64,000 nucleotides of DNA from a virus: the IMG/VR virus record IMGVR_UViG_3300034062_007329, positions 1-64,000 of that record; one strand, written 5' to 3'. The notes beneath the pieces are model-generated. The model saw nothing but the letters and a program-made list of their open reading frames with translations, made no database searches and had not been told where the DNA came from. Positions 4,696 to 45,879 of this stretch are shown here, piece by piece (the first letter of the stretch is position 1; each line of letters opens with the position of its first letter). Both the position numbers and the translations under genes were made by a program.

Positions 4696-5943
4696 TTGAA
4701 ATTATTTAGTATTCACTACGCGGATGATCTAAAATTAGTAGAAAAAAATCATAAAAAATTTTGTGCTAACAATGGCATAGAGTATAATAAATTCAGAGCT
4801 TCTCCAAGCGCTGCACTGAAGTATAGTTTTATACTTCAGGAGTTACAAAGAAATTTCGGGGAAACGCTTATTTTTATAGACTCAAGCTGCTACTTTAATA
4901 AATTTAAAACAAAATTTGATTTTAATAAATCAAAAATTTGGTTTCAAAAAGAAAAAAATTATTCATTTGATAATTTTATTGTTATCAAAAGCGATGAAGA
5001 AACTATAAAACTATTTTCAAAAATATCTTTTGATATTGACAAAACGACATTTGGAAAATTTTATACTGAACCGATTCACATAGACATACCAGAAAAGTAT
5101 ATAATACCACATTCATATAGAGAAAATGATCAATATTTTTGTTTAAGAATTGGCATGTGCAACGATTATAGCCAAATAGAGGAAAGTTTAGTGCTATCTA
5201 CAGATAGTGTCCTTACAGAAGAAAAAGGTCTTTTTTTTGCTGAAGCCTGTTGTGCTGCCAAAGAGATAAAACAAGAAAATTTAGATTCTAAATTAGATTT
5301 TGAAATTATTAATCCAAATAAAACTAAAGCATTGGTAATGCTATATACCGACGAAATTAAAGAATATGGTGCTACTTCTGAAGAATCTATCAAATCATTT
5401 TGTCAAAAAAATGACCATACGCTGTATGTCTATAGAAAAGTGCCAGAATTGCTAAAAAGAATGTCTGGGTCTTGGACGAAGCCGTTTGTGTTATTGAAAC
5501 ACATGAAAGATCATGAGTTTATTGGATGGATTGACGGTGATATTTTAATTGGAGAAGATTTTAAGAATATTTTTGAAGATGATGTGGCGATATTCAGAGA
5601 TCCCTCTGGCTGGTTGTTTAACTCTGGTTTTATGATGTTCAAAAACACCCAGAAAAATTATGATCTCTTAATGAAGATCGTACATGAGATAGGCAAATTG
5701 GAAAACTTAAATGGTGTTTATAACTATGGAGGAGATCAAAAACTTTTTATAGAATTCTTAAAAAAAGATTACCCATATATGTTACCATTGAGTAGTAGAT
5801 TTGCTAATACGCATCCTGTTTCACCAGAACAAATTAATCCAAGAGCAAGCAAAGATAAAATGATACACTTTATGGGATTTAAAAAAATACTAAGAAGCGA
5901 GTTGATTAAAGGCTATAATGCTTTAATGAGGAAACAAAAATGA
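4696..5943 (+). CDS. GT-A glycosyltransferase with duplicated halves
   Basis: 415 aa. The second half has the DxD signature in FIGWIDGDILIGEDF, then FNSGFMMFKNT and YGGDQKLF, the pattern of galactosyltransferase/alpha-mannosyltransferase (GT34-like) families that use nucleotide sugars and a metal. The first half repeats the outline in degraded form (LIFIDSSCYFNKF), suggesting an internal duplication with one inactive copy. The start is TTG at 4696, 6 nt after GGAG, because no in-frame ATG fits. Possible roles are modification of phage DNA, virion or host surface; the sequence does not decide. Confidence 0.7.
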   Translation: MKLFSIHYADDLKLVEKNHKKFCANNGIEYNKFRASPSAALKYSFILQELQRNFGETLIFIDSSCYFNKFKTKFDFNKSKIWFQKEKNYSFDNFIVIKSDEETIKLFSKISFDIDKTTFGKFYTEPIHIDIPEKYIIPHSYRENDQYFCLRIGMCNDYSQIEESLVLSTDSVLTEEKGLFFAEACCAAKEIKQENLDSKLDFEIINPNKTKALVMLYTDEIKEYGATSEESIKSFCQKNDHTLYVYRKVPELLKRMSGSWTKPFVLLKHMKDHEFIGWIDGDILIGEDFKNIFEDDVAIFRDPSGWLFNSGFMMFKNTQKNYDLLMKIVHEIGKLENLNGVYNYGGDQKLFIEFLKKDYPYMLPLSSRFANTHPVSPEQINPRASKDKMIHFMGFKKILRSELIKGYNALMRKQK

Positions 5944-22181: not shown

Positions 22182-22436
22182 ATGAAAATCACAAAAAAAT
22201 TATTAAAAGAAATGATTGAGGCGGAAATAACTAATTTAAAAGAAACTGACGACATGTTCCCAGAAATTAAGTTGGATAAGCAAGGACAAAGTCTTCTTAG
22301 AGAAGTAGCGAATGCTTTAGGGGATGCAAACTTTTTATTAAATTATGTTAATTTTTCGACAAATGAACAGAAAGAAGCAGTAATCTACATTAAAAATGTG
22401 CTTGAAAAAGTAAAGAGCCTTTTACAAACAAAATAA
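22182..22436 (+). CDS. MKITK-leader protein, short
   Basis: 84 aa. Leader MKITKKLLKEMIEAEITNL, then a helical body (LLREVANALGDANFLLNYV). Member of the tandem leader-bearing set. Confidence 0.62.
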   Translation: MKITKKLLKEMIEAEITNLKETDDMFPEIKLDKQGQSLLREVANALGDANFLLNYVNFSTNEQKEAVIYIKNVLEKVKSLLQTK

Positions 22437-22453
22437 ACAACAGGGATAAAATA

Positions 22454-22801
22454 ATGAAAATCACAAAACAACTGTTAAGAGAAATGATTGAAGAAGAAAT
22501 GAAAGTTATTCAATTGGGTCTTGGTCAGCCTCTACAAGCTCATGGATATATTGGCGGTGAACAAGGTATGGAAATCCAACCAAGTGAACCACAAATGGGT
22601 TATGAACAAGATCCAGATGGTTACGAAGGAAGTATGGCAAAAAATAACTTGTACAACTTAAAAAGTGATGCTATGATGCTCTGCGAACTCATCGCAGAGG
22701 ACGAGAATTTAGAGCCTTGGGTTGAGGAAAAGATCGCAGTTGCCGCCTCAATGTTAAACTCTGTGGCTCGTCACATGAAGGCAGAAAAAACAAGGATGTA
22801 A
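22454..22801 (+). CDS. MKITK-leader protein
   Basis: 115 aa. Leader MKITKQLLREMIEEEMK, a Gly/Gln-rich linker, then a helical domain (NLYNLKSDAMMLCELIAEDE, EPWVEEKIAVAASML). The helical domain type recurs in other phage leader proteins. Immediately abuts the HAD gene. Confidence 0.64.
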   Translation: MKITKQLLREMIEEEMKVIQLGLGQPLQAHGYIGGEQGMEIQPSEPQMGYEQDPDGYEGSMAKNNLYNLKSDAMMLCELIAEDENLEPWVEEKIAVAASMLNSVARHMKAEKTRM

Positions 22802-23314
22802 ATGATTAAGATCAGGATTGCTAATCAAAAATATTGCACAAAATTGTCTGTGTTTGATTTCGACGGAACTTTATTTAAAAGCCCAGACAAACCAGAAGGC
22901 TACAAAGGTAACTGGTGGATTGAAGCTAAGTCCTTGAATCCGCCGGCAGTTCCTAAAAAACCTGGTGATCAATTCTGGAATTTAGATGTCGTTGATGCCG
23001 CAATAAATGAATTAGCTAATCCTAAGAATTACGTGATATTAATGACTGGTCGTGTTGACCAGTTTTTTGAAGAACGTATAAATGAATTAGTAAAGCAGAA
23101 GGGCTTGAACTTTAAACACGTATGGCTAAACCAATTTGGTAGAAGCACTGGTGAGTTTAAAGTAGAAAAGATACGCGAACTCTTGAAAAATAATCCTTCA
23201 ATTAAAGAAATTGAAATGTGGGAAGACGAACAGGACAAGATCGAACTATATACTGAAGAATTTGGTAAGCAATATAAATTTAATATAAATAAAATAAAAG
23301 GCAGGGAAAAATAA
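22802..23314 (+). CDS. HAD-superfamily phosphatase, Swiss-army-knife RNA-repair type
   Basis: 170 aa. Motif I LSVFDFDGTLFKSP, motif II YVILMTGRVDQFF, acidic motif WEDEQDKIELY. The inserted GNWWIEAKSLNPP and FWNLDVVDAAI blocks match the HAD domain of Swiss-army-knife RNA-repair proteins. Expected to remove phosphate, possibly from nucleic-acid ends. N-terminus MIKIRIANQKY is the second leader type. The P-loop fusion 1.2 kb upstream could supply kinase activity, as in T4 Pnk split over two genes; that link is inference. Confidence 0.75.
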   Translation: MIKIRIANQKYCTKLSVFDFDGTLFKSPDKPEGYKGNWWIEAKSLNPPAVPKKPGDQFWNLDVVDAAINELANPKNYVILMTGRVDQFFEERINELVKQKGLNFKHVWLNQFGRSTGEFKVEKIRELLKNNPSIKEIEMWEDEQDKIELYTEEFGKQYKFNINKIKGREK

Positions 23315-23680
23315 ATGGATCCATTAATAGTTAATATGTTAGTAGGTATTGAACAACAGTTACGTATTCTTCATTGGCAAACAGACAGTTTTGCTCAACA
23401 TGAAGCATTTGGCAAAACTTATGCTGCTCTTGGAGATCTTATTGATGCATTTATGGAAGGCGTGATGGGAAAATATGGAAGATTCCAATTGCAAAGTAAT
23501 TCTGTTCAAATCATTAATATGTCCGAATTAGATATAGCGGATTTCATTGATGGCAGCGCCCAGTTCTTCAGTGGTCTTTCCGAGCAATTAGATCCAGAAA
23601 CTGATACAGATTTATTAAACATTCGTGACGAAATGTTGGCAGCAATCAGCAAACTAAAATATCTGCTAACTCTTAAGTAA
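23315..23680 (+). CDS. Ferritin/Dps-like helical protein
   Basis: 121 aa, all helical. RILHWQTDSFAQHEAFGKTY and LIDAFMEGVMGKYGR follow the H-W ... H ... D-x-F-x-E pattern of Dps/ferritin-like and DUF5856 proteins. Metal-ligand positions are only partly evident. It directly follows the H-A-D gene; terminator downstream. Confidence 0.6.
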   Translation: MDPLIVNMLVGIEQQLRILHWQTDSFAQHEAFGKTYAALGDLIDAFMEGVMGKYGRFQLQSNSVQIINMSELDIADFIDGSAQFFSGLSEQLDPETDTDLLNIRDEMLAAISKLKYLLTLK

Positions 23681-23708
23681 TACATTCTTTACAACATAAA
23701 AAAAACAT

Positions 23709-23740
23709 GCTATAAGTTTCTAAAGCTTATAGCTTTTTTA
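23709..23740 (+). terminator. Rho-independent terminator
   Basis: GCTATAAG / CTTATAGC stem and TTTTTT. Confidence 0.85.
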
Positions 23741-23753
23741 TTGGAGAAAATAT

Positions 23754-24035
23754 ATGTGTGTAATTTGCCGTGGGCTAAAAAATCACAAAATGACAATAGA
23801 GGAAGCAGAAGAAAAATATCAAGAGTTTTTAGAATTAGACTTGTTGGATGAAGACCATCAAGAAAAAGTCGAAGAACTAATTGCAGAAGCAGCTGATGAA
23901 TTAGCTTATTGGGATCTTGCCAAGAGAGATGTCTTTAGAAGAGACTATGACGATGACATTGACGAAAATGAACTTGTGCATGATGAAGTTGACGACCCAG
24001 AAACAGATTATTCAGACGAACCAGATGATGATTAA
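23754..24035 (+). CDS. Small acidic protein
   Basis: 93 aa. Starts MCVICRGLKNHKMTIEEAEE (one CxxC) and ends in an Asp/Glu-rich tail. GGAG before the ATG. Abuts the aminoacyl-transferase-like gene (ATGA-type spacing). Function unknown. Confidence 0.6.
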   Translation: MCVICRGLKNHKMTIEEAEEKYQEFLELDLLDEDHQEKVEELIAEAADELAYWDLAKRDVFRRDYDDDIDENELVHDEVDDPETDYSDEPDDD

Positions 24036-24734
24036 ATGAAAATAATTTATGATCATACGCATGGTTTTGGTAAAATGCGTGATCAAGCGTATATATACGC
24101 CCCAACAGGAGCCTTAGTTGAAGAAAAAGAGCATAAAGAAGCGCTGGAAACTGGTTGGTGTCCTTTATTAAATAATCTCTGGTTTCAAACAAGATCTACA
24201 AGAATAGATATAAAAAAGTATATACCAAATAAAAAGCTTTTAAAAAAAGCAAAACACATAAAACCATTTTATGGTGTATCACTTGATAATACAAAGAAAG
24301 CAATTTTTTTTGAGATATTCCAAAAATATATTAAATACAAAAAATTTAAAAGTCAAGATTACTCACTCGACGATATAATCAATACATCGAATGGCTACGT
24401 TTATTATGCATATGCAAATAAAATAATTGGTTTTTGTTTTTTCAAGATCTTAGCAAATAATATGTTTGCGGTTGAATTTGCTTGGGATTATGAAGATCCG
24501 AAGCTTTCTCTTGGAAAGTTAAACATACATTTTCTTGCTTACTTTGCTAAAATGAAAAAGTATGATTGTGTATACCTTTCTTCGGGATATGAAAGCTGCT
24601 CTATATACAAATCAGACTATGAAGGTTTCCAGTGGTGGACGGGAATGAAATGGTCAGAAGATGTTGAACACTTCAAGCGCCTGTGTTATAGTGATGATAA
24701 GGTGAAGATAGAGTTTGATTGGGAGAATATATGA
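24036..24734 (+). CDS. Arginyl/leucyl-tRNA-protein transferase-like (GNAT fold)
   Basis: 232 aa. NKIIGFCFFKILANNMFAVEF, then LSLGKLNIHFLAYFAKMKKY, VYLSSGYESCSIYKSDYEGF and WWTGMKW follow the C-terminal domain of Ate1/Bpt transferases (S-L-G ... Y-L-G-Y-x-x-x-x-C-x-K-M-x-Y-K-x-x-F). Those enzymes add Arg or Leu to protein N-termini, marking them for degradation. The N-terminal WCPLLNNLWFQTRSTRIDI fits the substrate-recognition part but lacks the usual CxxC pairs. Assignment is by pattern. Its stop overlaps the interrupted purA start (ATGA). Confidence 0.6.
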   Translation: MKIIYDHTHGFGKMRDQAYIYAPTGALVEEKEHKEALETGWCPLLNNLWFQTRSTRIDIKKYIPNKKLLKKAKHIKPFYGVSLDNTKKAIFFEIFQKYIKYKKFKSQDYSLDDIINTSNGYVYYAYANKIIGFCFFKILANNMFAVEFAWDYEDPKLSLGKLNIHFLAYFAKMKKYDCVYLSSGYESCSIYKSDYEGFQWWTGMKWSEDVEHFKRLCYSDDKVKIEFDWENI

Positions 24735-24772
24735 TTGACTATGCAGATGTTGTAGTAGATTTAGCTTGTTAA
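24731..24772 (+). pseudogene. Remnant of the original purA 5' end
   Basis: ATG overlapping the upstream stop (ATGA) encodes MIDYADVVVDLA, then Cys and TAA. The same 12 residues begin the intact purA at 25449, but 8 of 12 codons differ, all silently. The coupled position shows this was the original purA start, cut off by the endonuclease insertion. Confidence 0.85.
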
Positions 24773-24793
24773 AATGCTTATAATGGTCGTATG

Positions 24794-24803
24794 AACTACT
24801 TAT
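24794..24803 (+). promoter_or_regulatory. Late-type motif AACTACTTAT
   Basis: Copy of the recurrent motif 25 nt before the GIY-YIG gene, with GGAGG between. Confidence 0.5.
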
Positions 24804-24827
24804 TATATATGTCATGGAGGCTTTATA

Positions 24828-25442
24828 ATGAGTACAAAAAAATCTGGAATTTATCGTATTACCAATAAAGTAAATAATAAAATTTATATTGGTTCTGCCT
24901 ACAACTTATCTAATCGATTTTCTACACACAAATATTCTTTAAGAAATAATAAACATAAAAATCCACACCTACAAAGTGCTTGGAATTTATATGACGAGAA
25001 AGATTTTATATTTGAAATTCTTGAAATCGTAGAAGATAAAACAAAAATTATTGAAAGAGAACAATATTATTTAGATTTATATAACCCATGCGATAATTCT
25101 ATAGGCTATAATATTGCTAAAAAAGCTGGTAATACTGCTGGAGTTAAAGTATCTCTTGAAACAAGACAAAAACAAAGCGAATCAGCAAAAAAAAGACCAA
25201 AATATAAATGGACTGAAGAACAGAAACAAAATAGGAAAAAGACCCGCAAAGGTCAAGTAATGCCTTGGGCTAAATTAAACTGGGGGCTTGTAAACGAGAT
25301 AAGAAAGTTGTATACTGATGGCGTCTTCCAAAGAGAAATAGCAAAAAAATATAATTTGGCACAAACGACTGTAAGTGAAATTATAAGAAATGTAATTTGG
25401 ATCGATGAGTATTATGCCTACGAGCGTAGGAGAAACGGATAA
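24828..25442 (+). CDS. GIY-YIG homing endonuclease
   Basis: 204 aa. GIY-YIG catalytic domain at residues 6-95 (SGIYRITNK, KIYIGSAYNLSNRF, Glu in IIEREQYYLDLYN). The C-terminal DNA-binding part holds WGLVNEIRKLYTDG and a helix-turn-helix (QREIAKKYNLAQTTVSEIIRN). Such free-standing endonucleases cut an uninvaded allele and spread by repair. It separates the upstream purA stub from the recoded purA, so purA is the likely target. Own late-type motif and GGAGG. Confidence 0.93.
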   Translation: MSTKKSGIYRITNKVNNKIYIGSAYNLSNRFSTHKYSLRNNKHKNPHLQSAWNLYDEKDFIFEILEIVEDKTKIIEREQYYLDLYNPCDNSIGYNIAKKAGNTAGVKVSLETRQKQSESAKKRPKYKWTEEQKQNRKKTRKGQVMPWAKLNWGLVNEIRKLYTDGVFQREIAKKYNLAQTTVSEIIRNVIWIDEYYAYERRRNG

Positions 25443-25448
25443 ATAATT

Positions 25449-26447
25449 ATGATAGATTATGCTGATGTAGTGGTTGATCTTGCGTATGGGGATTCTGGAA
25501 AGGGAAAAGTTACACATCATTTAGCTAAAGTTGGGAACTATACTCACGTAATCAGGTTTTCTGGAGGCAATAACGCTGGACACACGATTTACCACGAAGG
25601 CAAGAAGTTTATCACTCATTCTATTCCTTCTGGTGTATTTTATGGAATTCGAAGCATTATTGGACCTGGATGTGTACTTAATGTAGAGCATTTCTTTAAT
25701 GAGATGAAGGAGTTGGAAGATGGTGGTGTCAGGTGTCAGGGCTTGGTATTTATTGCACGAAATGCTCATATCATCACCGATGAACACGTTATGGAGGATC
25801 GACAAGATAACGTTATCGGGACAACAAAACGCGGCGTCGGTCAAGCCTATCGTGACAAGCACAGCCGCAAGGGCATACGAGCGGAACAGGTAGAAAAGTT
25901 AAAACCATACCTAATTGATATGTATGAGGAGTTTTATAAACCTAATCAAATTAGTCGTATCCTTTTTGAAGGCGCTCAAGGATTTGGTCTTGATATCGAT
26001 TGGGGAGATTACCCTTACGTTACTTCTTCTGGCTGCACTGTTGCTGCTGCAATTGCTAATGGAGTTCCTGCAAAGCGAATTCGCAATGTTTGGGGAGTTG
26101 CGAAAGCTTATGAAACGTATGTTGGAATGAAGAAATTTGAACCAGATGAACCCGTGTTTAAAACAATGAGAGAAATTGGAAATGAATACGGAGCAACAAC
26201 TGGTCGTCCTCGTCAATGCAATTGGGTCAATGCAAAAAATCTTTTTAAAGCTATCGATCTAAACGGAGCTAACAAGATTGTATTTAACAAGGTTGATATC
26301 TTGAGAGAGATTGGCTCTTGGAAGATCTATGATGAAGACGACAAACTTGTAGAGTTTAAGAGCGAAGAAGAAATGAAAACTTGGTTTGCTAATAAGCTCC
26401 CAAGATCAACTGAGATCTATTGGTCGGATTCACCGGAAAGACTATAA
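25449..26447 (+). CDS. purA: Adenylosuccinate synthetase, short phage form
   Basis: 332 aa (bacterial PurA is about 430). Joins IMP and aspartate using GTP, first committed step to AMP. P-loop YGDSGKGKVTHHLA keeps the catalytic Asp and replaces the next Glu by Ser. NNAGHTI, IGTTKRGVGQAYRD (IMP phosphate loop), GATTGRPRQCNW (aspartate loop with both arginines) and NKVDIL (guanine site) are present. The C-terminal part of bacterial PurA is shortened, as in archaeal forms. Its first 12 codons are a recoded copy of the stub at 24731. The retained Asp argues against PurZ of Z-genome phages. Confidence 0.9.
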   Translation: MIDYADVVVDLAYGDSGKGKVTHHLAKVGNYTHVIRFSGGNNAGHTIYHEGKKFITHSIPSGVFYGIRSIIGPGCVLNVEHFFNEMKELEDGGVRCQGLVFIARNAHIITDEHVMEDRQDNVIGTTKRGVGQAYRDKHSRKGIRAEQVEKLKPYLIDMYEEFYKPNQISRILFEGAQGFGLDIDWGDYPYVTSSGCTVAAAIANGVPAKRIRNVWGVAKAYETYVGMKKFEPDEPVFKTMREIGNEYGATTGRPRQCNWVNAKNLFKAIDLNGANKIVFNKVDILREIGSWKIYDEDDKLVEFKSEEEMKTWFANKLPRSTEIYWSDSPERL

Positions 26448-26665
26448 TGGAGACTATAAAAGTAAAGCAGGGAGAATTTGAGGCTACAATATCGAAAGAC
26501 CCAGAGAGGGTCTTCATAAGCTTTAATATCCCAATGAAAGAACAAGAAGGTTTCAACCCAAATGATTTTTCATATCTTATTGAGCACATGATGTATCTGG
26601 CGATGAATAAAGATGGGAAATATGTCGTGGAATATCAGGGGCTTGACACGCCAATATCTGCGTGA
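26447..26665 (+). CDS. Hypothetical protein
   Basis: 72 aa starting METIKVKQGEFEATISKDP, on the last base of the purA stop (TAATG). Beta strands then a helix. Its 3' end contains the promoter for the next gene. No family recognised. Confidence 0.55.
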   Translation: METIKVKQGEFEATISKDPERVFISFNIPMKEQEGFNPNDFSYLIEHMMYLAMNKDGKYVVEYQGLDTPISA

Positions 26666-26671
26666 TAGAGT
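26643..26671 (+). promoter_or_regulatory. Promoter, leaderless class
   Basis: TTGACA, 17 nt ending TGA, TAGAGT; the next ATG lies exactly 7 nt after the -10, at the predicted +1. Confidence 0.72.
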
Positions 26672-26677
26672 GTCTCT

Positions 26678-27007
26678 ATGCTGACGACGACACCGAAGTA
26701 CCCCGTAGAATCCACATATGATCCCTGCCTCCTTCGCGGGGCTGATGGTAAACAATTGTATGCAGTTGGAGGTGGTGAATGGCTACCAGTTCCAGATGGT
26801 ACAACAATGGTGAATGTTCATCTCTATATGAAAAGGAAAGAGTATGTCCCGAATCTCCCGATCAAAAGAATGCAAGTCACAATCAAAGGCAAGGGATACA
26901 AAGTCGAGGTGTGGAAAGACAAAACTATTACTTGCGAATGCACAGGATTCCGCTATCGAAAGACTTGTAAGCACGTTCAAGCAGTTCAAAAAGCGGTGAA
27001 GAATTGA
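26678..27007 (+). CDS. SWIM zinc-finger protein
   Basis: 109 aa. The C-terminus has the SWIM pattern C-x-C-x-n-C-x-H (ITCECTGFRYRKTCKHVQAV), a zinc motif for nucleic-acid or protein contact. N-terminal strand region includes KRMQVTIKGKGYKVEVWKD. Predicted leaderless. Its stop overlaps the TTG start of the next gene. Confidence 0.72.
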   Translation: MLTTTPKYPVESTYDPCLLRGADGKQLYAVGGGEWLPVPDGTTMVNVHLYMKRKEYVPNLPIKRMQVTIKGKGYKVEVWKDKTITCECTGFRYRKTCKHVQAVQKAVKN

Positions 27008-27366
27008 AGAACAAATTCAAGATAGGCGATCTTGTTAAAATGAAGCGAGATAGGTTCTTTATCCATCGTTGGAAGAATACAGAAAAGCTGGCAACACTAC
27101 CAGTTGCTGGTATGATTACAGCTATTAATATTGAAAGCTGGATTCATCCTTATTATGGCTTGTCTAAGCACTTTGAAAAGAAAGAAATTGAAGTTGAAGT
27201 TGCAACAATCAAGTGGTTTGAGTATGAAATACCTGGTTTCGGATTCTCGGATGAATTTAATTTAGCTGAATATAATAAAAATTATAGTAAGATGCCAACC
27301 AAAAGTTTGGCAGATTTTAGCAAGTATCTCGCGGCTCTGAGGAAAAAGAAAGATCTTTACAAGTGA
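27004..27366 (+). CDS. V-G-D-L-V family small protein
   Basis: 120 aa from TTG (TTGA overlap, GGTGAAG upstream). KFKIGDLVKMKRDR and EVATIKWFEYE fit the small beta-barrel-like family expanded in this window, with a longer C-terminal helix. Confidence 0.58.
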   Translation: MKNKFKIGDLVKMKRDRFFIHRWKNTEKLATLPVAGMITAINIESWIHPYYGLSKHFEKKEIEVEVATIKWFEYEIPGFGFSDEFNLAEYNKNYSKMPTKSLADFSKYLAALRKKKDLYK

Positions 27367-27384
27367 GAGCGAGAGTGGTAGAGT
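27356..27384 (+). promoter_or_regulatory. Promoter with 5' hairpin leader
   Basis: TTTACA, 17 nt ending TGG, TAGAGT; leader hairpin GAGCCGA/TCGGCTC and AAGGAG before the 27454 gene. Confidence 0.65.
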
Positions 27385-27453
27385 AGTTCTACAAGGTGAG
27401 CCGAGAGATGACAGATCGGCTCCGATAACCGCCCAAAGTGGCAAGGAGAAAAT

Positions 27454-27765
27454 ATGTCAAGCCGTAACACTAAGTCAAACCGTTCAACCCGCAACACTTC
27501 AACCCGCTCAACTGGTCGTGATCCAAACCGTACAGTGTTTGACCCAACCGATTATGATCGTGGTGTATACAAGGTTGAGCGCAAGCTAAAGCGTATCGGC
27601 ATGGGTATTCGTCGCGGTGATACACGTCATGGTGATTATAGCAACGTAGTCCTGTGGAAGCCAAAGGATGCTCGAGGTGATTCACGTAGATTCACACTAA
27701 CTCTTTCTGAAGCCCGTTCACTACAGGCTTTTTTGAATCGTGAACTCCAAGTCCGCGCTCGCTAA
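27454..27765 (+). CDS. Basic Ser/Thr/Arg-rich probable nucleic-acid-binding protein
   Basis: 103 aa. N-terminus is low complexity (SSRNTKSNRSTRNTSTRSTG). The C-terminus VVLWKPKDARGDSRRFTLTL plus SEARSLQAFLNREL looks like a compact beta-helix fold. Own promoter, hairpin leader and terminator point to a strongly expressed single gene. Family not recognised. Confidence 0.6.
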   Translation: MSSRNTKSNRSTRNTSTRSTGRDPNRTVFDPTDYDRGVYKVERKLKRIGMGIRRGDTRHGDYSNVVLWKPKDARGDSRRFTLTLSEARSLQAFLNRELQVRAR

Positions 27766-39582: not shown

Positions 39583-39659
39583 GGACCTGTAGCTTAACTG
39601 GTTAAAGCACTCGACTTATAATCGAGAGAGTCTGGGATCGTTCCCCAGCGGGTCCACCA
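39583..39659 (+). tRNA. tRNA-Ile (UAU)
   Basis: Full cloverleaf: acceptor GGACCTG/CGGGTCC, anticodon arm CTCGA-CTTATAA-TCGAG, T loop, encoded CCA. Reads AUA, rare in most bacterial hosts. Confidence 0.9.
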
Positions 39660-39664
39660 ATTAC

Positions 39665-39753
39665 GGGGATGTGGCGGAATTGGCATACGCAAAGCACTTA
39701 AAATGCTTCGGGTCTTAGCGCCCATGTGGGTTCGACTCCCACCATCCCCACCA
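39665..39753 (+). tRNA. tRNA-Leu (UAA)
   Basis: Acceptor GGGGATG/CATCCCC, anticodon loop CTTAAAA, long variable arm, encoded CCA. Confidence 0.92.
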
Positions 39754-39810
39754 ATTTTGTTAGTCGTTTCGTGGTAGAGACAACTAATTATTATTACGAG
39801 GTGTCTCCCT

Positions 39811-40263
39811 ATGAAAACAAAAGAAGAAATAGAAGCAGCAGTAAGAGATAGTTTATCATACGCTCAAACGCTTTCTAAGTTAGATTTGAAGCCTATGGGT
39901 GGCAACTATCGAATCCTGAAACGCAAGATTGCAGAGTATCAAATAGATACAAAGCATTTTACTGGCAAGGGTCATTTAAAGAATAAAACGCACGACTGGT
40001 CTAAAAAGATTCCTCTTGTTGATATATTAAAAGAGGGAACAATCTATCAAAGTTTTAAGTTAAAAAATAGGTTGTTAAAAGAAAAGATCATTGAAAACAA
40101 ATGTAGTGAATGTGGTCTTGGTGATGAATGGTTTGGCAAGAAAATTAACCATCATTTAGATCACATAAACGGTGTCAACACTGATAATAGGTTAGAGAAT
40201 CTAAGATTGCTCTGCCCTAATTGTCATAGTCAAACTGATACTTATACTGGTAAGAATAAATAG
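39811..40263 (+). CDS. HNH endonuclease in tRNA cluster
   Basis: 150 aa. C-terminal zinc-supported HNH: KCSECGLGDEWFG, HHLDHINGVNTDNRLENL, LLCPNCHSQTDTYTG. N-terminus has a helical, HTH-like region (AQTLSKLDLKPMGGNYRILK). Probably a mobile homing endonuclease lodged between tRNA-Leu and tRNA-Asn. ATG follows CGAGGTGTCTCC. Confidence 0.9.
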   Translation: MKTKEEIEAAVRDSLSYAQTLSKLDLKPMGGNYRILKRKIAEYQIDTKHFTGKGHLKNKTHDWSKKIPLVDILKEGTIYQSFKLKNRLLKEKIIENKCSECGLGDEWFGKKINHHLDHINGVNTDNRLENLRLLCPNCHSQTDTYTGKNK

Positions 40264-40269
40264 TTTAGT

Positions 40270-40345
40270 TGGCGAGTAGCACAATGGCAGTCGCAGCGAG
40301 CTGTTAACTCGCAGGTTGCAGGTTCAAGTCCTGCCTCGCCAGCCA
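40270..40345 (+). tRNA. tRNA-Asn (GUU)
   Basis: Acceptor TGGCGAG/CTCGCCA, anticodon arm GCGAG-CTGTTAA-CTCGC, encoded CCA. Confidence 0.93.
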
Positions 40346-40362
40346 ATTTATGTAATAATCAT

Positions 40363-40438
40363 GGGGAGTTAGCTCATCAGGTAGAGCAAAAGACTTTTAA
40401 TCTTTTGGTGGACGGTTCGAGTCCGTCACTCCCTACCA
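40363..40438 (+). tRNA. tRNA-Lys (UUU)
   Basis: Acceptor GGGGAGT/ACTCCCT, anticodon arm AAAGA-CTTTTAA-TCTTT, encoded CCA. Confidence 0.93.
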
Positions 40439-40468
40439 ATTTTCAAAGTAAGACTATTTAAGTATCAT

Positions 40469-40543
40469 GGCTCGTTCGTCTAATGGTTAGGACGGAAGCC
40501 TTTCAAGCTTCAAACAAGAGTTCAATTCTCTTACGAGTCACCA
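40469..40543 (+). tRNA. tRNA-Glu (UUC)
   Basis: Acceptor GGCTCGT/ACGAGTC, anticodon arm GAAGC-CTTTCAA-GCTTC, encoded CCA. A GACTATTTAA motif lies 7 nt upstream. Confidence 0.92.
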
Positions 40544-40558
40544 ATTTATATAAGGACT

Positions 40559-40693
40559 ATGCGGGCTTATTATTATAAGGTGTTCAACTCTGCTGCGAAC
40601 ACCCAGTCAAGCGCGGAACCTTGAATTCCTTTGCTGAGATGGCATGATTATTAAAGCGCAGATAGTGGTTGGGTCGAGAAACCAACCCCGCAT
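40559..40693 (+). ncRNA. Structured RNA candidate 1 in tRNA cluster
   Basis: 135 nt closed by ATGCGGG/CCCGCAT. Inside are hairpins CTTAT/ATAAG, GGTGTTC/GAACACC (7 bp) and GGTTGG/CCAACC with a TCGA-containing loop next to the closing stem. No anticodon arm, no CCA and no ORF. Not recognised as tmRNA or RNase P. Confidence 0.5.
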
Positions 40694-40703
40694 AATGTTT
40701 TAT

Positions 40704-40777
40704 TGGGAATTCGTCTAAGGGCAGGACGGCAGACTTTGAATCTGCCTATGGTGGTTCAAATCCATCATTCCCAACCA
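40704..40777 (+). tRNA. tRNA-Gln (UUG)
   Basis: Acceptor TGGGAAT/ATTCCCA, anticodon arm GCAGA-CTTTGAA-TCTGC, encoded CCA. Confidence 0.92.
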
Positions 40778-40789
40778 ATTTTGTTTTGC

Positions 40790-40866
40790 GGTCTGGTAGC
40801 TCAATTGGATAGAGCAAAGAGCTTCTACCTCTTAGGTTGGGGGTTCAAGTCCCTCCCAGATCGCCA
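40790..40866 (+). tRNA. tRNA-Arg (UCU)
   Basis: Acceptor GGTCTGG/CCAGATC, anticodon arm AAGAG-CTTCTAC-CTCTT, encoded CCA. Reads AGA. Confidence 0.93.
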
Positions 40867-40872
40867 ATTTGC

Positions 40873-40962
40873 AGAGGGTTGTGTGAGCGGTTGAAACAGC
40901 CAGACTTGAAATCTGGTATACCTTAACGGGTATCAAAGGTTCAAATCCTTTACCCTCTGCCA
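40873..40962 (+). tRNA. tRNA-Ser (UGA)
   Basis: Acceptor AGAGGGT/ACCCTCT, anticodon loop CTTGAAA, long variable arm, discriminator G and encoded CCA. Confidence 0.9.
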
Positions 40963-40973
40963 CTAATTAACAC

Positions 40974-41063
40974 GGATGTTTAGACCGCTAAAGTAGACGG
41001 GTCGCTCTGTAAAAGCGATATCCCTTGTGATCCGAGTGGGCGCGATTCCCTCAACATCCACCA
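40974..41063 (+). tRNA. tRNA-Tyr (GUA)
   Basis: Acceptor GGATGTT/AACATCC, anticodon arm TCGCT-CTGTAAA-AGCGA, long variable arm, encoded CCA. T loop is CGCGATT, with C instead of T at the first position. Confidence 0.87.
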
Positions 41064-41085
41064 ACCTGTAAGCAGGAGGCAACAA

Positions 41086-41265
41086 ATGAAGATCGTTCGT
41101 AATAGCGCGAAGTGTAAGAAGTGCGGGGACGAAATCGAAAGCAAGCATCGTCACGATTTTGTTTCTTGCAAGTGTGGTGAAATCTTTGTTGATGGTGGCA
41201 AGGATTATTTCCGTCGCGGTGCAAAGGATCTTGAGAATATCGTTGATACTTCTGTGAGTGTGTAA
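41086..41265 (+). CDS. Small zinc-ribbon protein
   Basis: 59 aa: KCKKCGDEIES ... VSCKCGEIF. AGGAGG 8 nt before the ATG. Lies between tRNA-Tyr and the next small gene. Confidence 0.68.
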   Translation: MKIVRNSAKCKKCGDEIESKHRHDFVSCKCGEIFVDGGKDYFRRGAKDLENIVDTSVSV

Positions 41266-41327
41266 TTCGATGGGAATGTCTCCCATCCCTAACCGCTGGA
41301 TATTCCAGCAGAGAGAGAAAGAAACAA

Positions 41328-41525
41328 ATGAAGATCGCTAATTCGCTGTGGGCTGTGGTTGAGCGTTCGGATGTTGATGGTGGCAGTTTCGTGATGCGCG
41401 AGGAGATTTTCAGTTCGCGTCAGGATGCCCGCGATTATCTTTCTGAGGTAAAGCGTAGTGGCGTTGTGGATCGCCCTCGTTCGCTGTTCATTCGCCAGTT
41501 GCGCGTTACTAACAAGCGTGGCTAA
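41328..41525 (+). CDS. Small hypothetical protein
   Basis: 65 aa. SLWAVVERSDVDGGSFVMRE then DARDYLSEVKRSG, a beta-helix fold seen in phage accessory proteins. The leader carries two hairpins (GATGGGA/TCCCATC and CTGG/CCAG) before GAGAGAG. Confidence 0.6.
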   Translation: MKIANSLWAVVERSDVDGGSFVMREEIFSSRQDARDYLSEVKRSGVVDRPRSLFIRQLRVTNKRG

Positions 41526-41608
41526 TTATTAAGAACGGTCTGTGATCGTTTGGGCTTTGGTGGTTGCGCCCGTGGGTTGTTCCATAAAGCAACCGCCCCA
41601 ATTTTTAA

Positions 41609-41684
41609 GCCTATTTAGCTCAGTTGGTAGAGCACGTCACTTGTAATGATGAGGTCGCCCGTTCGATTCGGGCAATAGGCTCCA
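41609..41684 (+). tRNA. tRNA-Thr (UGU)
   Basis: Acceptor GCCTATT/AATAGGC, anticodon arm CGTCA-CTTGTAA-TGATG, encoded CCA. Confidence 0.92.
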
Positions 41685-41694
41685 ATTGTTGTAT

Positions 41695-41781
41695 GGGCGA
41701 ATGGCGTAACAGGTAGCCGCGACAGACTCAAAATCTGTTTCCTGCAAAGGAGTGTCGGTTCGATTCCGACTTTGCCCACCA
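41695..41781 (+). tRNA. tRNA-Leu (CAA)
   Basis: Acceptor GGGCGAA/TTTGCCC, anticodon arm ACAGA-CTCAAAA-TCTGT, long variable arm, encoded CCA. Confidence 0.9.
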
Positions 41782-41914
41782 ATCTACACTACAGCAATAA
41801 ACACAAGGTCTGTGGTTTCCAAAGTGGGTTGGAAATTATTGTTGAGCGAACTACAGGTTCTCTGGCATATCCTGTTGTAGAAAAAGCCAGACTTTTTATA
41901 AGGAATTAGCTGAA

Positions 41915-42469
41915 ATGCTTACGTCAAAAGCTGACCTGAAGCAATTAGTACGAACAAGAAAGTTGGTAAGGGAACAAGCAGAAACTTCTTATGAAGATCC
42001 AGAAGATTTTATATTTTTTTGCTACATTGCAAAGAACCCACAGTCTTATGGAAGTCTCTTGGAGAAAAGAATAAGAGAGAAGAACGGAATGATTAAAGTC
42101 GAAGCATCCCAAGAGAAAGGTGATGCTGTAGACGTGGATGGTAATTTTAAAGAGATTAAGTGCTCTATAAGTGATTGTGGTGTATTTAATGCAGTTCAAA
42201 TTAGACCACACCACAATATTCATTCTTGTTTGCTTTTCTTTTTTGAAATTGATGATAGCACAAACGTCGTGAATCACTTCTTTGAAGTTCCAGAGAAAGA
42301 TGTATTAACTTTTCCTGGTATCTCAATAGCTCATGGCGTTAAAGCAAACAAAAATTCTAAATCAGAGTATAGAATTACGTTTGATAAAAACAAAAAAAAG
42401 TCTGATACTGTTGCTGGTAGAGCATGGAATGAACTTCAAAAATATAAAATAAGCAACAAGATATTTTAA
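41915..42469 (+). CDS. PD-(D/E)XK-like endonuclease
   Basis: 184 aa. GDAVDVDGNFKEIKCSISD has the D-x-n-E-x-K catalytic spacing of restriction-type nucleases; QSYGSLLEKRIREKNG could hold the supporting Glu. Inserted among tRNA genes like the HNH gene, so a homing or restriction endonuclease is likely. AAGGA before ATG. Confidence 0.65.
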   Translation: MLTSKADLKQLVRTRKLVREQAETSYEDPEDFIFFCYIAKNPQSYGSLLEKRIREKNGMIKVEASQEKGDAVDVDGNFKEIKCSISDCGVFNAVQIRPHHNIHSCLLFFFEIDDSTNVVNHFFEVPEKDVLTFPGISIAHGVKANKNSKSEYRITFDKNKKKSDTVAGRAWNELQKYKISNKIF

Positions 42470-42485
42470 AAGAATTGTTCTATTT

Positions 42486-42560
42486 GGGAATGTAGTTTAA
42501 TGGTAAAACATCTGTCTCATACGCAGAATAGTGATGGTTCGATTCCATCCGTTCCCACCA
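42486..42560 (+). tRNA. tRNA-Met or Ile2 (CAU)
   Basis: Acceptor GGGAATG/CGTTCCC, anticodon loop CTCATAC, encoded CCA. G1-C72 pairs, so not an initiator. Met versus lysidine-modified Ile cannot be decided by eye. Confidence 0.87.
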
Positions 42561-42566
42561 ATTTAC

Positions 42567-42640
42567 AGTCCCATAACTTAATGGTAAAGTAAAAGGCTCT
42601 TACCCTTTTAATGAGAGTTCGATTCTCTCTGGGACTACCA
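42567..42640 (+). tRNA. tRNA-Lys (CUU)
   Basis: Acceptor AGTCCCA/TGGGACT, anticodon arm AAAGG-CTCTTAC-CCTTT, encoded CCA. Confidence 0.88.
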
Positions 42641-42653
42641 AATATATTTGCAA

Positions 42654-42719
42654 ACTGGTATAGATTAACGGAAAAGCGTTGCGGCAGCAAAGATATGGGT
42701 TCAAATCCCATTGCCAGTT
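42654..42719 (+). other. Degenerate tRNA-like sequence
   Basis: Acceptor ACTGGTA/TGCCAGT and T arm ATGGG-TTCAAAT-CCCAT are intact. The D arm does not pair and the anticodon arm is a 4-bp/4-nt hairpin (TTGC-GGCA-GCAA); no CCA. Could be a decayed tRNA or a tRNA-like RNA. Confidence 0.5.
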
Positions 42720-42731
42720 TGCATTTTAATT

Positions 42732-42810
42732 TTATGCGGTAGCAGGTTCGATTCCTGCCTGTCGCCCGCTAATATGGGAGGCGGAGAGCAGAATGGTTAC
42801 TTTCGCATAA
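42732..42810 (+). ncRNA. Structured RNA candidate 2, T-arm-like
   Basis: Closed by TTATGCG/CGCATAA. Contains GCGGTAGCAGG-TTCGATT-CCTGC, a tRNA T arm directly joined to an acceptor-like helix without D or anticodon arm, then CGCC/GGCG. Similar to the RNA at 53157. Confidence 0.45.
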
Positions 42811-42819
42811 TCCTTTCGT

Positions 42820-42895
42820 GTGTCCTTGTTGTATTTAGTTTGCATACCAGACTGTGACTCTGGCGGAATTGGTGCGAATCCAATAGGACACCCCA
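42820..42895 (+). tRNA. tRNA-His (GUG)
   Basis: Acceptor GTGTCCT/AGGACAC with C73 as expected for His, anticodon arm CCAGA-CTGTGAC-TCTGG, encoded CCA. Unusual D loop without GG and T loop TGCGAAT; base -1 is T rather than G. Confidence 0.75.
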
Positions 42896-42946
42896 ATTTG
42901 CTCCTTTCCCCTATAGCATCCTATTTACTTTATGGAGGTAATAGCG

Positions 42947-43162
42947 ATGGCTAAAACAAATCAAAAGGGAAAGGAGAGAGCAACAAAGAAAGATTCAGGC
43001 AACAAAGCATTTATAATTAGCATGATTGTATTTGCTGTTCTTGTTTCTGGGTGTGTCTCGTACTTATTATGGGATAGGAGCAATTCACACCAATATGGTT
43101 GCATGGTATTAGGCGTTGACCAAGTATCTGGATTGGTTGGATTGGAATGTTACAAGAAATAA
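42947..43162 (+). CDS. Single-pass membrane protein
   Basis: 71 aa. Basic N-terminus, then one membrane segment (FIISMIVFAVLVSGCVSYLLW). GGAGG fixes the ATG at 42947. Periplasmic tail with CMVLGVD. No family recognised. Confidence 0.62.
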   Translation: MAKTNQKGKERATKKDSGNKAFIISMIVFAVLVSGCVSYLLWDRSNSHQYGCMVLGVDQVSGLVGLECYKK

Positions 43163-43163
43163 C

Positions 43164-43343
43164 ATGAAACTACCATATCCGCACGATGAAACGTATCATA
43201 AAGAATTCATGGAGTATGATGATTTCTATGCTGCGTATTATTGCAAAAAATGTGATTTCTGGTTAGAAGATAAGTGCGAAGATCCCCTTTGCCTATTCTG
43301 CAAACAAAGACCAGAGAAGCCATCAAAAGTATTTTATAGTTGA
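43164..43343 (+). CDS. Small zinc-ribbon protein, paralogue of 45624
   Basis: 59 aa: AAYYCKKCDFWLEDKCEDPL ... CLFCKQRPEKPSK. The same C-x-x-C-D-x-W-L-E-x-K-C-E-D ... F-C-x-x-R-P-x-K-P-S pattern recurs at 45624. Confidence 0.68.
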   Translation: MKLPYPHDETYHKEFMEYDDFYAAYYCKKCDFWLEDKCEDPLCLFCKQRPEKPSKVFYS

Positions 43344-43367
43344 AAACAATTTTAGTTTGAGATATAA

Positions 43368-43970
43368 ATGAAAAAAGATTTTACTATTAAAGCGATAGCA
43401 AAAGAAGAAGCAAAGTCTATTTTAGAAAAATATCATTATCTATCTAAGATATCTCGCGGCTTTAAAAGCGGGTATAATTATGGATTATACCACAAACAAA
43501 CACTTTCTGGAGTTTCTATCTTTACTGGTCTACCAGTTCCAGAAGTCGCTAAAGGTTGCTTTGGTTTAGAGAGAAATGAACAGGATGGGTTATTCGAATT
43601 ATCCCGTCTGTGCCTCATACCAGAAGTTCAGCATAGTGAACATAACTTGGCTGGTTGGTTTTCTTCAAGAGCGATTAAGCAATTACGGAAAGATGTAAAT
43701 GTTCGTGCGATCCTGTCATATGCCGATAATGATTTCCATAGCGGAATTGTTTATGCTGCAACAAACTGGAAATACTATGGGTTAACAGATCCAAAGAAAG
43801 ATTTTTGGTTCAAGCAAGAGGATGGCACATACAAAAAGCATAACAGAGGAAAAATTAGTGGTTGCGAAGGCGAATGGAGAGATCGCAGCAGAAAGCATCG
43901 CTTTTTAAAAGTATTTGATCCATCTCTAAATGTTCTTTGGCAAGAACAAGAGTGGAAAAATAAAAGTTAG
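43368..43970 (+). CDS. Mom-like GNAT-fold protein (possible DNA modification)
   Basis: 200 aa. ILEKYHYLSKISRG, then LFELSRLCLIPEV, NVRAILSYADNDFHSGIVY and AATNWKYYGLT, which follow the pattern of phage Mu Mom and related proteins (S-R-L ... Y-A-D ... G-x-x-Y-x-A-x-N-W). Mom modifies adenines to shield phage DNA from restriction. Identity is by pattern only. Ends at the start of structured RNA 3. Confidence 0.68.
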   Translation: MKKDFTIKAIAKEEAKSILEKYHYLSKISRGFKSGYNYGLYHKQTLSGVSIFTGLPVPEVAKGCFGLERNEQDGLFELSRLCLIPEVQHSEHNLAGWFSSRAIKQLRKDVNVRAILSYADNDFHSGIVYAATNWKYYGLTDPKKDFWFKQEDGTYKKHNRGKISGCEGEWRDRSRKHRFLKVFDPSLNVLWQEQEWKNKS

Positions 43971-44172
43971 TGTTTGGATAGGTGAATATCAAAGAGAGGT
44001 GTTCCCCGTTGCAGATGAACCCCTTTCCGCTGCAAGACCAACGGATAAAATATAAATCGCAACTAAGTATGCAATCCGCTAAGAGAGGTTGCCCCAAAAA
44101 GGTAATGGCTGTGGATTGGAAACCCATTGCGGGTTCTTTACCTACCCGCCTTCGCATTATCTTCCAAACACT
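43969..44172 (+). ncRNA. Structured RNA candidate 3
   Basis: 204 nt closed by a 9-bp helix AGTGTTTGG/CCAAACACT, starting in the stop of the Mom-like gene. Inside: TTGCAG/CTGCAA, CGGAT/ATCCG, AACCC/GGGTT and GCGGG/CCCGC alternatives. The 79-codon frame here runs into tRNA-Ile and has no ribosome site, so RNA is preferred. Confidence 0.45.
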
Positions 44173-44185
44173 ATTTATGTATTAT

Positions 44186-44262
44186 GCGATAATAGCTCAG
44201 TTGGTTAGAGCATTCGCTTGATAAGCGAAAGGTCGTTGGTTCAAGTCCATCTTATCGCACCA
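44186..44262 (+). tRNA. tRNA-Ile (GAU)
   Basis: Acceptor GCGATAA/TTATCGC, anticodon arm TTCGC-TTGATAA-GCGAA, encoded CCA; one T-T mismatch in the T stem. CACTATTTAT lies 8 nt upstream. Confidence 0.88.
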
Positions 44263-44271
44263 ATTTAGAAT

Positions 44272-44349
44272 CGGGGTATCGCCTAACCTGGCATGGCACC
44301 AGTTTTGGGAACTGGCAAAATATTGGTTCAAATCCAATTACCCCGACCA
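44272..44349 (+). tRNA. tRNA-Pro (UGG)
   Basis: Acceptor CGGGGTA/TACCCCG, anticodon arm CCAGT-TTTGGGA-ACTGG, encoded CCA. Confidence 0.9.
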
Positions 44350-44375
44350 ATTTTTTTTCTCTTATTCAGCTATAT

Positions 44376-44385
44376 AACTATTTAT
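44376..44385 (+). promoter_or_regulatory. Late-type motif AACTATTTAT
   Basis: 22 nt before ATG 44407, with AGGAG between. Confidence 0.55.
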
Positions 44386-44406
44386 ATACATTACAGGAGA
44401 AATCGT

Positions 44407-44673
44407 ATGAAAATTACCAAAGAGTATTTAAAAGAATTGATCAAAGAAGAACTCAGCGAGTCTGGGGAACCTTTTTCCAAGAGACACAAACAGCAAGCCA
44501 GCAGAGTCTTAAAAAGCTTTTTACAAAAAAAAAGCAAAGCTCTAAGCCCACAAGTTGAAAATAAAGTAATAGAAATATTAGCCGACAAAATTAATCAAAG
44601 CGAATATAGCGGTAGCGGTGGTACGCTTAGTGATTCCCATATAGCAATGGCTATATTAGATGTTGTTTTGTAG
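44407..44673 (+). CDS. MKITK-leader protein
   Basis: 88 aa, MKITKEYLKELIKEELSESG, then a helical body (KRHKQQASRVLKSFLQKK). A leader-type gene placed alone after the tRNA cluster, with its own late-type motif and terminator. Proposed virion-internal. Confidence 0.62.
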   Translation: MKITKEYLKELIKEELSESGEPFSKRHKQQASRVLKSFLQKKSKALSPQVENKVIEILADKINQSEYSGSGGTLSDSHIAMAILDVVL

Positions 44674-44702
44674 TTATTTTAGAACATACTTGTAGGTGTA
44701 AA

Positions 44703-44734
44703 GCCACAGATGATCCTTTCGTCTGTGGCATTTT
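44703..44734 (+). terminator. Rho-independent terminator
   Basis: GCCACAGA/TCTGTGGC stem then ATTTTA. Confidence 0.82.
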
Positions 44735-44806
44735 ATATCACGGTGTTATTCAAATGCGGTTTCCAGCCGCCCGCAACTTATTTCCCCGCAACCAACAATT
44801 AAACTC

Positions 44807-44835
44807 TTGACACGCTGCCCCTGCCGTGGTAGTAT
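44807..44835 (+). promoter_or_regulatory. Promoter with 5' hairpin leader
   Basis: TTGACA, 17 nt ending TGG, TAGTAT; hairpin CGCTG/CAGCG then GAGAGGA. Confidence 0.75.
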
Positions 44836-44869
44836 GGTATTAACGCTGATGGGCAGCGAGAGGAAATGA

Positions 44870-45148
44870 ATGTCACTTTATAGTGAATGTGCGGATATCT
44901 ACGCAGAATATGTTGAACCCTATTACTATGATGGGGACTATGATCTTGAGTTTATGCCTAAAATGAGGCAGCGTGCTGCAAAGGCAGTTGTTGAGTATGT
45001 GAAAAAGAATTATCCAGATACTCCCACAACCTATTGCAAGGCTTGTGACGAGATCCATCCATACACCAAGATTGTTTATGATTCTGGTGTTGCTGCCGAT
45101 GTTTGTTTGGTTTGTGGTTATGGTGTAGTTCCGATTGAGGGGAAGTAA
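44870..45148 (+). CDS. Zinc-ribbon protein
   Basis: 92 aa. Tyr/Asp-rich helical start, then TTYCKACDEIHPY ... VCLVCGYGV. Own promoter. Function unknown. Confidence 0.66.
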   Translation: MSLYSECADIYAEYVEPYYYDGDYDLEFMPKMRQRAAKAVVEYVKKNYPDTPTTYCKACDEIHPYTKIVYDSGVAADVCLVCGYGVVPIEGK

Positions 45149-45150
45149 AA

Positions 45151-45282
45151 ATGGAAAAGCGTTGCTCAAATTGTAAAAGCTATCTTACTGATCTTGAAAT
45201 TGAAGCTTGCGGTGGAATGTGTGCTGAATGTGAATTCTATTCAGTAGTTTTAATGGATGATGATAGTTTGGAGGAAGCGTAA
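45151..45282 (+). CDS. Small zinc-ribbon protein
   Basis: 43 aa: KRCSNCKSYL ... MCAECEFYS. Two nt after the previous stop; shares a base with the next ATG (TAATG). Confidence 0.65.
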   Translation: MEKRCSNCKSYLTDLEIEACGGMCAECEFYSVVLMDDDSLEEA

Positions 45283-45620
45283 TGTCTAATATCTATATGA
45301 TCCGCCGTAAGACCGATGGTAAGTATATTTGCGGAAGCGGTCGTTATCCTTGGTTTTCCGATGATATCGGTAGAACCTTCTATTCGCTCCATTCGGTTAA
45401 GATTTTCTTAACAAACTATCTCAAGTGTAATAAGATCAAGACTTGGGAGAATGGACGTTACAAGTTTAATGCTGGTGAGTTCTTTACTCCAAGCAACATT
45501 CTTCTTAATTGTGAAGTTGTAGCGGTTGAGGTTAAGCCAAGTTCTATCCAAGACATTTTTGAGTTCTCCGCTCAAACTGAAATGGAGCGAAAGACAAAGA
45601 AGAAGAAGGCAAAGAAGTAA
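45282..45620 (+). CDS. Hypothetical protein
   Basis: 112 aa. MSNIYMIRRKTDGKYICGSG, a W-F-S pattern and basic C-terminus (KTKKKKAKK), resembling small phage proteins that begin with a Y-x-I-R-x-K strand. GGAGG upstream. Confidence 0.6.
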   Translation: MSNIYMIRRKTDGKYICGSGRYPWFSDDIGRTFYSLHSVKIFLTNYLKCNKIKTWENGRYKFNAGEFFTPSNILLNCEVVAVEVKPSSIQDIFEFSAQTEMERKTKKKKAKK

Positions 45621-45623
45621 GCA

Positions 45624-45788
45624 ATGTTCAAAGTAACTTGTAAGTTATATGAATTTCATAAAACTGACTATAGTTACGAATATGATGCCTATTTCTGTTG
45701 CGATTGCGATGATTGGTTAGAAAAGAAATGTGAAGATCATCGCTGTAACTTTTGTCCAAAGCGCCCAGATAAGCCATCGCAAGTTTAG
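45624..45788 (+). CDS. Small zinc-ribbon protein, paralogue of 43164
   Basis: 54 aa: FCCDCDDWLEKKCEDHRCNF ... CPKRPDKPSQV. The final G of its TAG stop is the first base of tRNA-Ser. Confidence 0.65.
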   Translation: MFKVTCKLYEFHKTDYSYEYDAYFCCDCDDWLEKKCEDHRCNFCPKRPDKPSQV

Positions 45789-45879
45789 GAAACGTGGGTG
45801 AGAGGCTTAAACCAGCGGTTTGCTAAACCGCCGTAGGTGTAACAATCTACCGAAGGTTCAAATCCTTCCGTTTCCGCCA
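45788..45879 (+). tRNA. tRNA-Ser (GCU)
   Basis: Acceptor GGAAACG/CGTTTCC, anticodon arm GCGGT-TTGCTAA-ACCGC, long variable arm, discriminator G and CCA. Begins on the last base of the preceding stop codon. Confidence 0.92.

Follow-up and report, generated by a model that had tools for sequence, protein, structure and literature searches.

The closest described parallels to the locus reported here come from fungal mitochondria, where mobile endonuclease ORFs (mORFs) replace the 3' ends of genes, as in atp6 of Allomyces and in atp6, atp9, cox2 and nad3 of Glomus (PMC3630166). In Glomus and Allomyces the C-termini are the replaced parts, the orphan ends match those of relatives, and the working ends are foreign (PMC3630166); a related version in Tremella involves introns that carry host-gene fragments (PMC7315562). 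In phages, the Seg proteins of T4 are free-standing GIY-YIG endonucleases that spread by intronless homing with co-conversion of flanking sequence; their genes are intergenic, and the cleavage sites are hundreds or thousands of base pairs distant (PMC2988022). Other homing endonuclease genes (HEGs) split phage genes, as do mobE in nrdA of Aeh1 and mobA at gene 60/39 of T4 (PMC2988022), and there the genes stay split and function as two polypeptides. Gene-end replacement has thus far been described mainly in fungal mitochondria, in its C-terminal form; in the literature we searched, which excluded most subscription journals, we found no description of it in phages.

We use comparative analysis of a 64,000-nucleotide stretch of viral DNA (positions 1 to 64,000 of IMG/VR record IMGVR_UViG_3300034062_007329; here called the window) to study a GIY-YIG endonuclease gene lodged between two starts of purA. 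Our main reading, to which we assign a probability of roughly 0.8, is an endonuclease-driven insertion after purA codon 12 that also imported a replacement for the gene end. The features of the locus are as follows.

24036..24734, + strand: upstream gene, an ORF with a weak arginyltransferase-like match (ATE_C, PF04377, E 2e-4, below cutoff)
24731..24772, + strand: orphan 5' stub of the resident purA, 12 codons (24731-24766), then TGT and the stop TAA
24767..24827, + strand: leader of the inserted element; the alignment to the HEG-free locus L001 ends at 24767
24828..25442, + strand: GIY-YIG homing endonuclease gene, 204 aa (PF01541, E 1.5e-14; TIGR01453, 103.8 bits, cutoff 56)
25428..25432, + strand: AGGAG inside the 3' end of the endonuclease gene, a possible ribosome-binding site of the restarted purA, judged from sequence
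25449..26447, + strand: complete purA, restarted after the insertion, 332 aa (adenylosuccinate synthetase, PF00709, E 5e-82)
25449..25484, + strand: duplicated, silently diverged 12-codon start, from codon comparison with the stub
25449..25874, + strand: putative imported (co-conversion) tract with an L002-like site pattern, its right end placed in a region of high similarity among L001, L002 and the window

As in the fungal mORFs, an endonuclease gene lies in a conserved gene, the native end is orphaned and nearly identical to that of relatives, and the working end is diverged, foreign and fused in frame; even the silent character of the differences recurs, since those between the Glomus atp6 orphan and its relative are all silent too (PMC3630166). 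Of the features that mark the fungal cases, the window has the end duplicated around the HEG, the orphan nearer to relatives and the foreign working end, and it is the N-terminus, not the C-terminus, that has been exchanged. Unlike the fungal cases, the setting is a phage, there is no intron, and with the 5' end swapped translation restarts after the endonuclease gene. With the T4 Seg system the locus shares a free-standing GIY-YIG gene and inheritance with co-converted flanks, but the window HEG sits inside its target ORF and is accompanied by a replacement gene end. In contrast to the mobE and mobA cases, one polypeptide is restored through the duplicated, diverged end.

The stub ORF (24731-24772) encodes MIDYADVVVDLAC*, and its ATG overlaps the stop of the upstream gene as ATGA. 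The leader contains GGAGG at 24816-24820, ahead of the endonuclease ATG; its RNA fold gives no signal (z 0.36) and it has no Rfam match. The endonuclease keeps the catalytic Tyr, Tyr, Arg, Glu and Asn positions, which are invariant alignment columns. The intact purA ORF (25449-26447) starts MIDYADVVVDLA, its longer N-terminal stretch being MIDYADVVVDLAYGDSGKGK, and the spacing from AGGAG to its ATG is long, at 16 nt. The 332-aa product falls below the NCBIfam cutoffs for PurA and PurZ alike, and a scan of genome contigs with this short PurA gave mostly Patescibacteria proteins as its nearest cellular relatives (49-63%). Elsewhere in the window, a cluster of 16 tRNA genes at 39583-45879 includes a small HNH-like ORF (39811-40263).

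Which of the two starts is the resident one can be read from L001, part of a 168-kb uncultured phage contig that is syntenic with the window, lacks the HEG and has an uninterrupted purA. L001 698-3037 aligns to window 22426-24767 and L001 3000-5172 to window 25448-27660, so that the 38 nt at L001 3000-3037 are matched twice, at 24730-24767 and from 25448 onward. The GIY-YIG gene is thus a polymorphism at this site, present in the window and absent in L001; no HEG occurs in the 80 purA loci that we fetched. The upstream gene in L001 is the same gene with the same ATGA overlap onto purA, although an IMG/VR search with the upstream protein as query gave no passing relative. The stub is identical to L001 at 33/36 nt, to a second purA locus (L002) at 32/36 and to the intact window start at 27/36, while that working start matches L001 at only 27/36 and L002 at 29/36. 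The synteny, the overlap and the higher identity of the stub together identify it as the resident purA start. An earlier note made from the sequence of the window had taken the stub for the original start because of its ATGA overlap and had suggested comparison with relatives lacking the insertion; that assignment holds, and the stub is not unrelated sequence. All three differences between stub and L001 are silent, which argues that the stub was functional until recently and has been dead for only a short time.

Codon by codon, the stub and the intact start encode the same 12 residues, with 8/12 codons and 9 nt differing and every difference silent, just as the earlier note described; the peptide repeat scores 59, where the 99th percentile of mismatched locus pairs is 43-46. 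If changes were random with respect to the code, the silent share would be about 22%, and for the 7 single-change codons P=2.6e-5, so both starts diverged as working coding sequence. The implied protein-level selection on both starts seems to fit divergence in separate genomes better than it fits a duplicate made in situ. It is very improbable that the purA start was instead duplicated locally at insertion and then altered by silent drift or by selection favouring synonymous changes that abolish the target: identical peptides and 9/9 silent differences are what this would leave, but a dead stub should also gather replacement changes, and none is seen against L001. Moreover, the divergence between stub and intact start equals that between separate phages, and a local copy leaves unexplained a tract of about 420 nt past the repeat that is L002-like. 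On these grounds we reject local duplication with later drift.

The same comparison bears on the earlier note's further proposal, that the silent differences are a recoding that would make the target resistant. Where the window and the fetched part of the L001 genome encode identical residues, about 58% of the codons are the same, and 12% of all identical 12-residue stretches have four or fewer codons in common; 8/12 is therefore ordinary divergence and needs no special recoding. Across eight duplicated pairs, working and orphan ends differ at 0.37 in the first 30 nt and at 0.29-0.34 further off. The differences are thus not concentrated at the insertion site, which counts against selected local change and calls for no targeted recoding. 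We reject recoding as proof of selection, silent divergence of this kind being ordinary between such phages.

A site-by-site comparison along purA, using full-length genes from L001, L002 and the window, points to the ancestry of the working start. Among sites at which L001 and L002 differ, agreement of the window with L002 is 60/76 in nt 1-414 and 51/124 beyond nt 426; the best mosaic break is nt 427 (permutation p<0.001), with much or most of its strength coming from an L002-like patch at nt 282-414, and nt 1-281 alone still differ from the rest (Fisher p=0.009). Over the whole gene the agreement is 0.56 of informative sites, against 0.17-0.48 in the other genes compared, which makes purA the most L002-shifted of these shared genes. 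With an L002-like first ~420 nt followed by an L001-type remainder, the working start has another ancestry than the rest of the gene, as co-conversion predicts and as the earlier note had proposed when it derived the new start from a diverged purA. The patch itself (window 25730-25862) is nearly identical to the otherwise distant L002 and L006 and looks like recent recombination. Window genes at 30436, 18478 and 6819 are likewise mosaic, with breaks between L001-like and L002-like sequence; since other genes of this phage are mosaic too, the purA break may have nothing to do with the endonuclease. With an identity of only about 76% outside the patch, L002 is not the donor, and in IMG/VR we found none with an identical restarted start or endonuclease.

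A mosaic of this kind raises the question of whether two phage strains were simply joined in assembly. The window arrangement is known from one metagenomic contig, and exact searches of IMG/VR for both junction sequences gave no match, so that the exact junction has been seen once. We nevertheless consider a chimera very improbable: synteny with L001 persists on both flanks, and identical or same-site arrangements at other genes recur in independent records (L236 = L376, 100% over 5.4 kb; L122, L123 and L301; L133 and L294).

Another rival is a group I intron that by coincidence encodes the first 12 residues at its 3' end, so that splicing would join the stub to codon 13; the possible splice points do obey the U / G rule (GCT|TGTTAA ... 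GCG|TATGGG). No Rfam intron is found even at E 10, however, in a search whose positive control, the group I intron beside the GIY-YIG gene of Bacillus phage BSP15 (L383), is detected. Apart from the endonuclease ORF the insert has only about 100 nt, a match of 12 encoded residues would not arise by chance, and none of 12 loci of window-like build (0/12) has an Rfam intron. With no intron core RNA around the HEG by Rfam, we reject this extremely improbable reading.

We return to endonuclease-driven insertion with import of a gene end, which could proceed as follows. The free-standing GIY-YIG HEG would enter after purA codon 12, just before the conserved GDSGKGK nucleotide-binding motif, its enzyme cleaving the conserved motif near a gene end. 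The repair template would be a phage that carries the endonuclease beside its own copy of the target gene, and break repair would then bring in the endonuclease gene, the purA 5' end of that different phage and some hundreds of bases of the gene body. The foreign first ~420 nt of purA would thereby be fused in frame to the resident remainder, with translation restarting there, and the resident start would remain as a dead orphan stub. In this scheme this enzyme is the presumed cutter, and the cut position, the repair route and the escape of the imported start from further cleavage are what the arrangement suggests. A GIY-YIG gene 44% identical to the window's lies in L113 (G005; ~5160-5890, minus strand), 19 nt upstream of dnaE and with no stub; this stub-free endonuclease-dnaE arrangement, in a phage that bears purA, could be a donor-like state.

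Now we consider whether the organisation recurs. We compared the translated flanks of GIY-YIG endonuclease loci from IMG/VR (153 distinct loci), scoring an adjacent repeat at ≥35 when it lay ≤200 nt upstream and ≤60 nt downstream. Such repeats occur at 15/153 HEG loci versus 5/913 mismatched pairs. Of the 15, we set aside L190 and L260, whose repeats do not make sense as gene ends, and the uncertain L303; with L191 added, 13 gene-sensible cases of an orphan end with a diverged replacement end remain, the window included, a rate of 8% that is not general because the survey centred on relatives of the window enzyme. Weak repeats dropped for want of a sensible gene end were L120, L147, L143, L183, L190, L260, L093 and L142. 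In the N-terminal form the order is stub, endonuclease, restarted gene; in the C-terminal form it is gene with new end, endonuclease, orphan end.

N-terminal form: purA, in the window
N-terminal form: GroEL, twice (L125, L135)
N-terminal form: GH19-like enzyme (L126)
N-terminal form: zinc-ribbon protein (L301, also L122 and L123)
N-terminal form: dnaE (L191), the stub 340 nt from the endonuclease with a further ORF between
N-terminal form: 432-residue ORF starting MPNVVETKK (L185)
C-terminal form: SbcC/SMC-like ATPase, twice (L238; L236, also L153 and L376)
C-terminal form: deaminase (L145)
C-terminal form: small protein, family not assigned (L294, also L133)
C-terminal form, shorter cases: L160, L270

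The C-terminal cases in L238, L236, L145 and L294 correspond directly to the fungal mORF form. At GroEL, two endonucleases sharing 53% identity have insertion points no more than about a codon apart (L125, L135). The small ORF between the dnaE stub and the endonuclease (L191 2155-2495) has a CTTCGC-type tandem repeat. All positive examples are metagenomic contigs; among isolate phages, 29 HEG ORFs in 28 regions gave no clear case, and several of these ORFs sit in split RNR, td or RNA polymerase genes.

The SbcC-like gene serves as a replicate. In L238 the orphan end is 88-96% identical in nucleotides to the HEG-free L315, L317, L366 and L369, against 81% for the working end, and it continues into the relatives' next ORF (stop, then ATGGATATGGCAAA). 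The L238 and L236 insertions are at the same nucleotide, with TATTTATATTAGA directly after the endonuclease stop codon in both. Between these two phages the endonucleases are 67% identical and the gene bodies 65%, while the orphan ends are 92% identical as protein. Orphans so alike despite the divergence elsewhere must have been orphaned recently and separately, as repeated site-specific homing predicts. The residue before ILDEP at the insertion point is F in 10/10 HEG-free homologues examined and M in both carriers, a hint, from these alignments, that the substitution may bear on resistance to the enzyme. An SbcC-like gene without endonuclease (L370 374-600) ends more like the imported type and has an altered stop; it may represent the state after loss of the element. 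Between the new gene end and the endonuclease start, L238 has a hairpin (GACCCACCTATT...AATAGGTGGGTTTT, 2440-2500), a candidate terminator or translation control.

These replicates also bear on whether the endonuclease and the replacement gene end travel as one unit, a mobile cassette with homology arms on both sides (the upstream gene and stub on the left, the gene body on the right), and not through one-off asymmetric repair. Such a unit would produce what is seen at one site in divergent phages whose endonucleases are homologous (GroEL in L125 and L135, the SbcC-like gene in L238 and L236): the same organisation, with orphan ends that still look recently functional. However, the two replacement ends of the SbcC-like gene match each other at just 79%, no better than they match the orphans, so no shared travelling end is visible, and the exact junction searches found no second copy of the window cassette. 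We hold the cassette as a tentative possibility, one to be taken seriously at less than even odds.

Beyond the single insertion in purA, we think it somewhat probable that a class of free-standing GIY-YIG elements is common in phages, directed at active-site motifs close to one or the other end of essential genes and supplying a diverged substitute for the severed end. Invasion would then be harmless to the gene while swapping part of a conserved protein between lineages, in N-terminal restart and C-terminal forms and by repeated independent insertions at the same nucleotide. On this reading neither an intron nor an intein nor a split protein is needed for a selfish endonuclease to invade the middle of a conserved phage gene, because it brings a spare gene end. 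The trace it leaves (orphan end, endonuclease, diverged working end) would be machine-detectable in any phage genome and would account for truncated 'extra' gene pieces. Endonucleases would directly generate mosaicism within the genes of conserved phage proteins, and the system would offer a natural test of how homing elements spare their own carrier.
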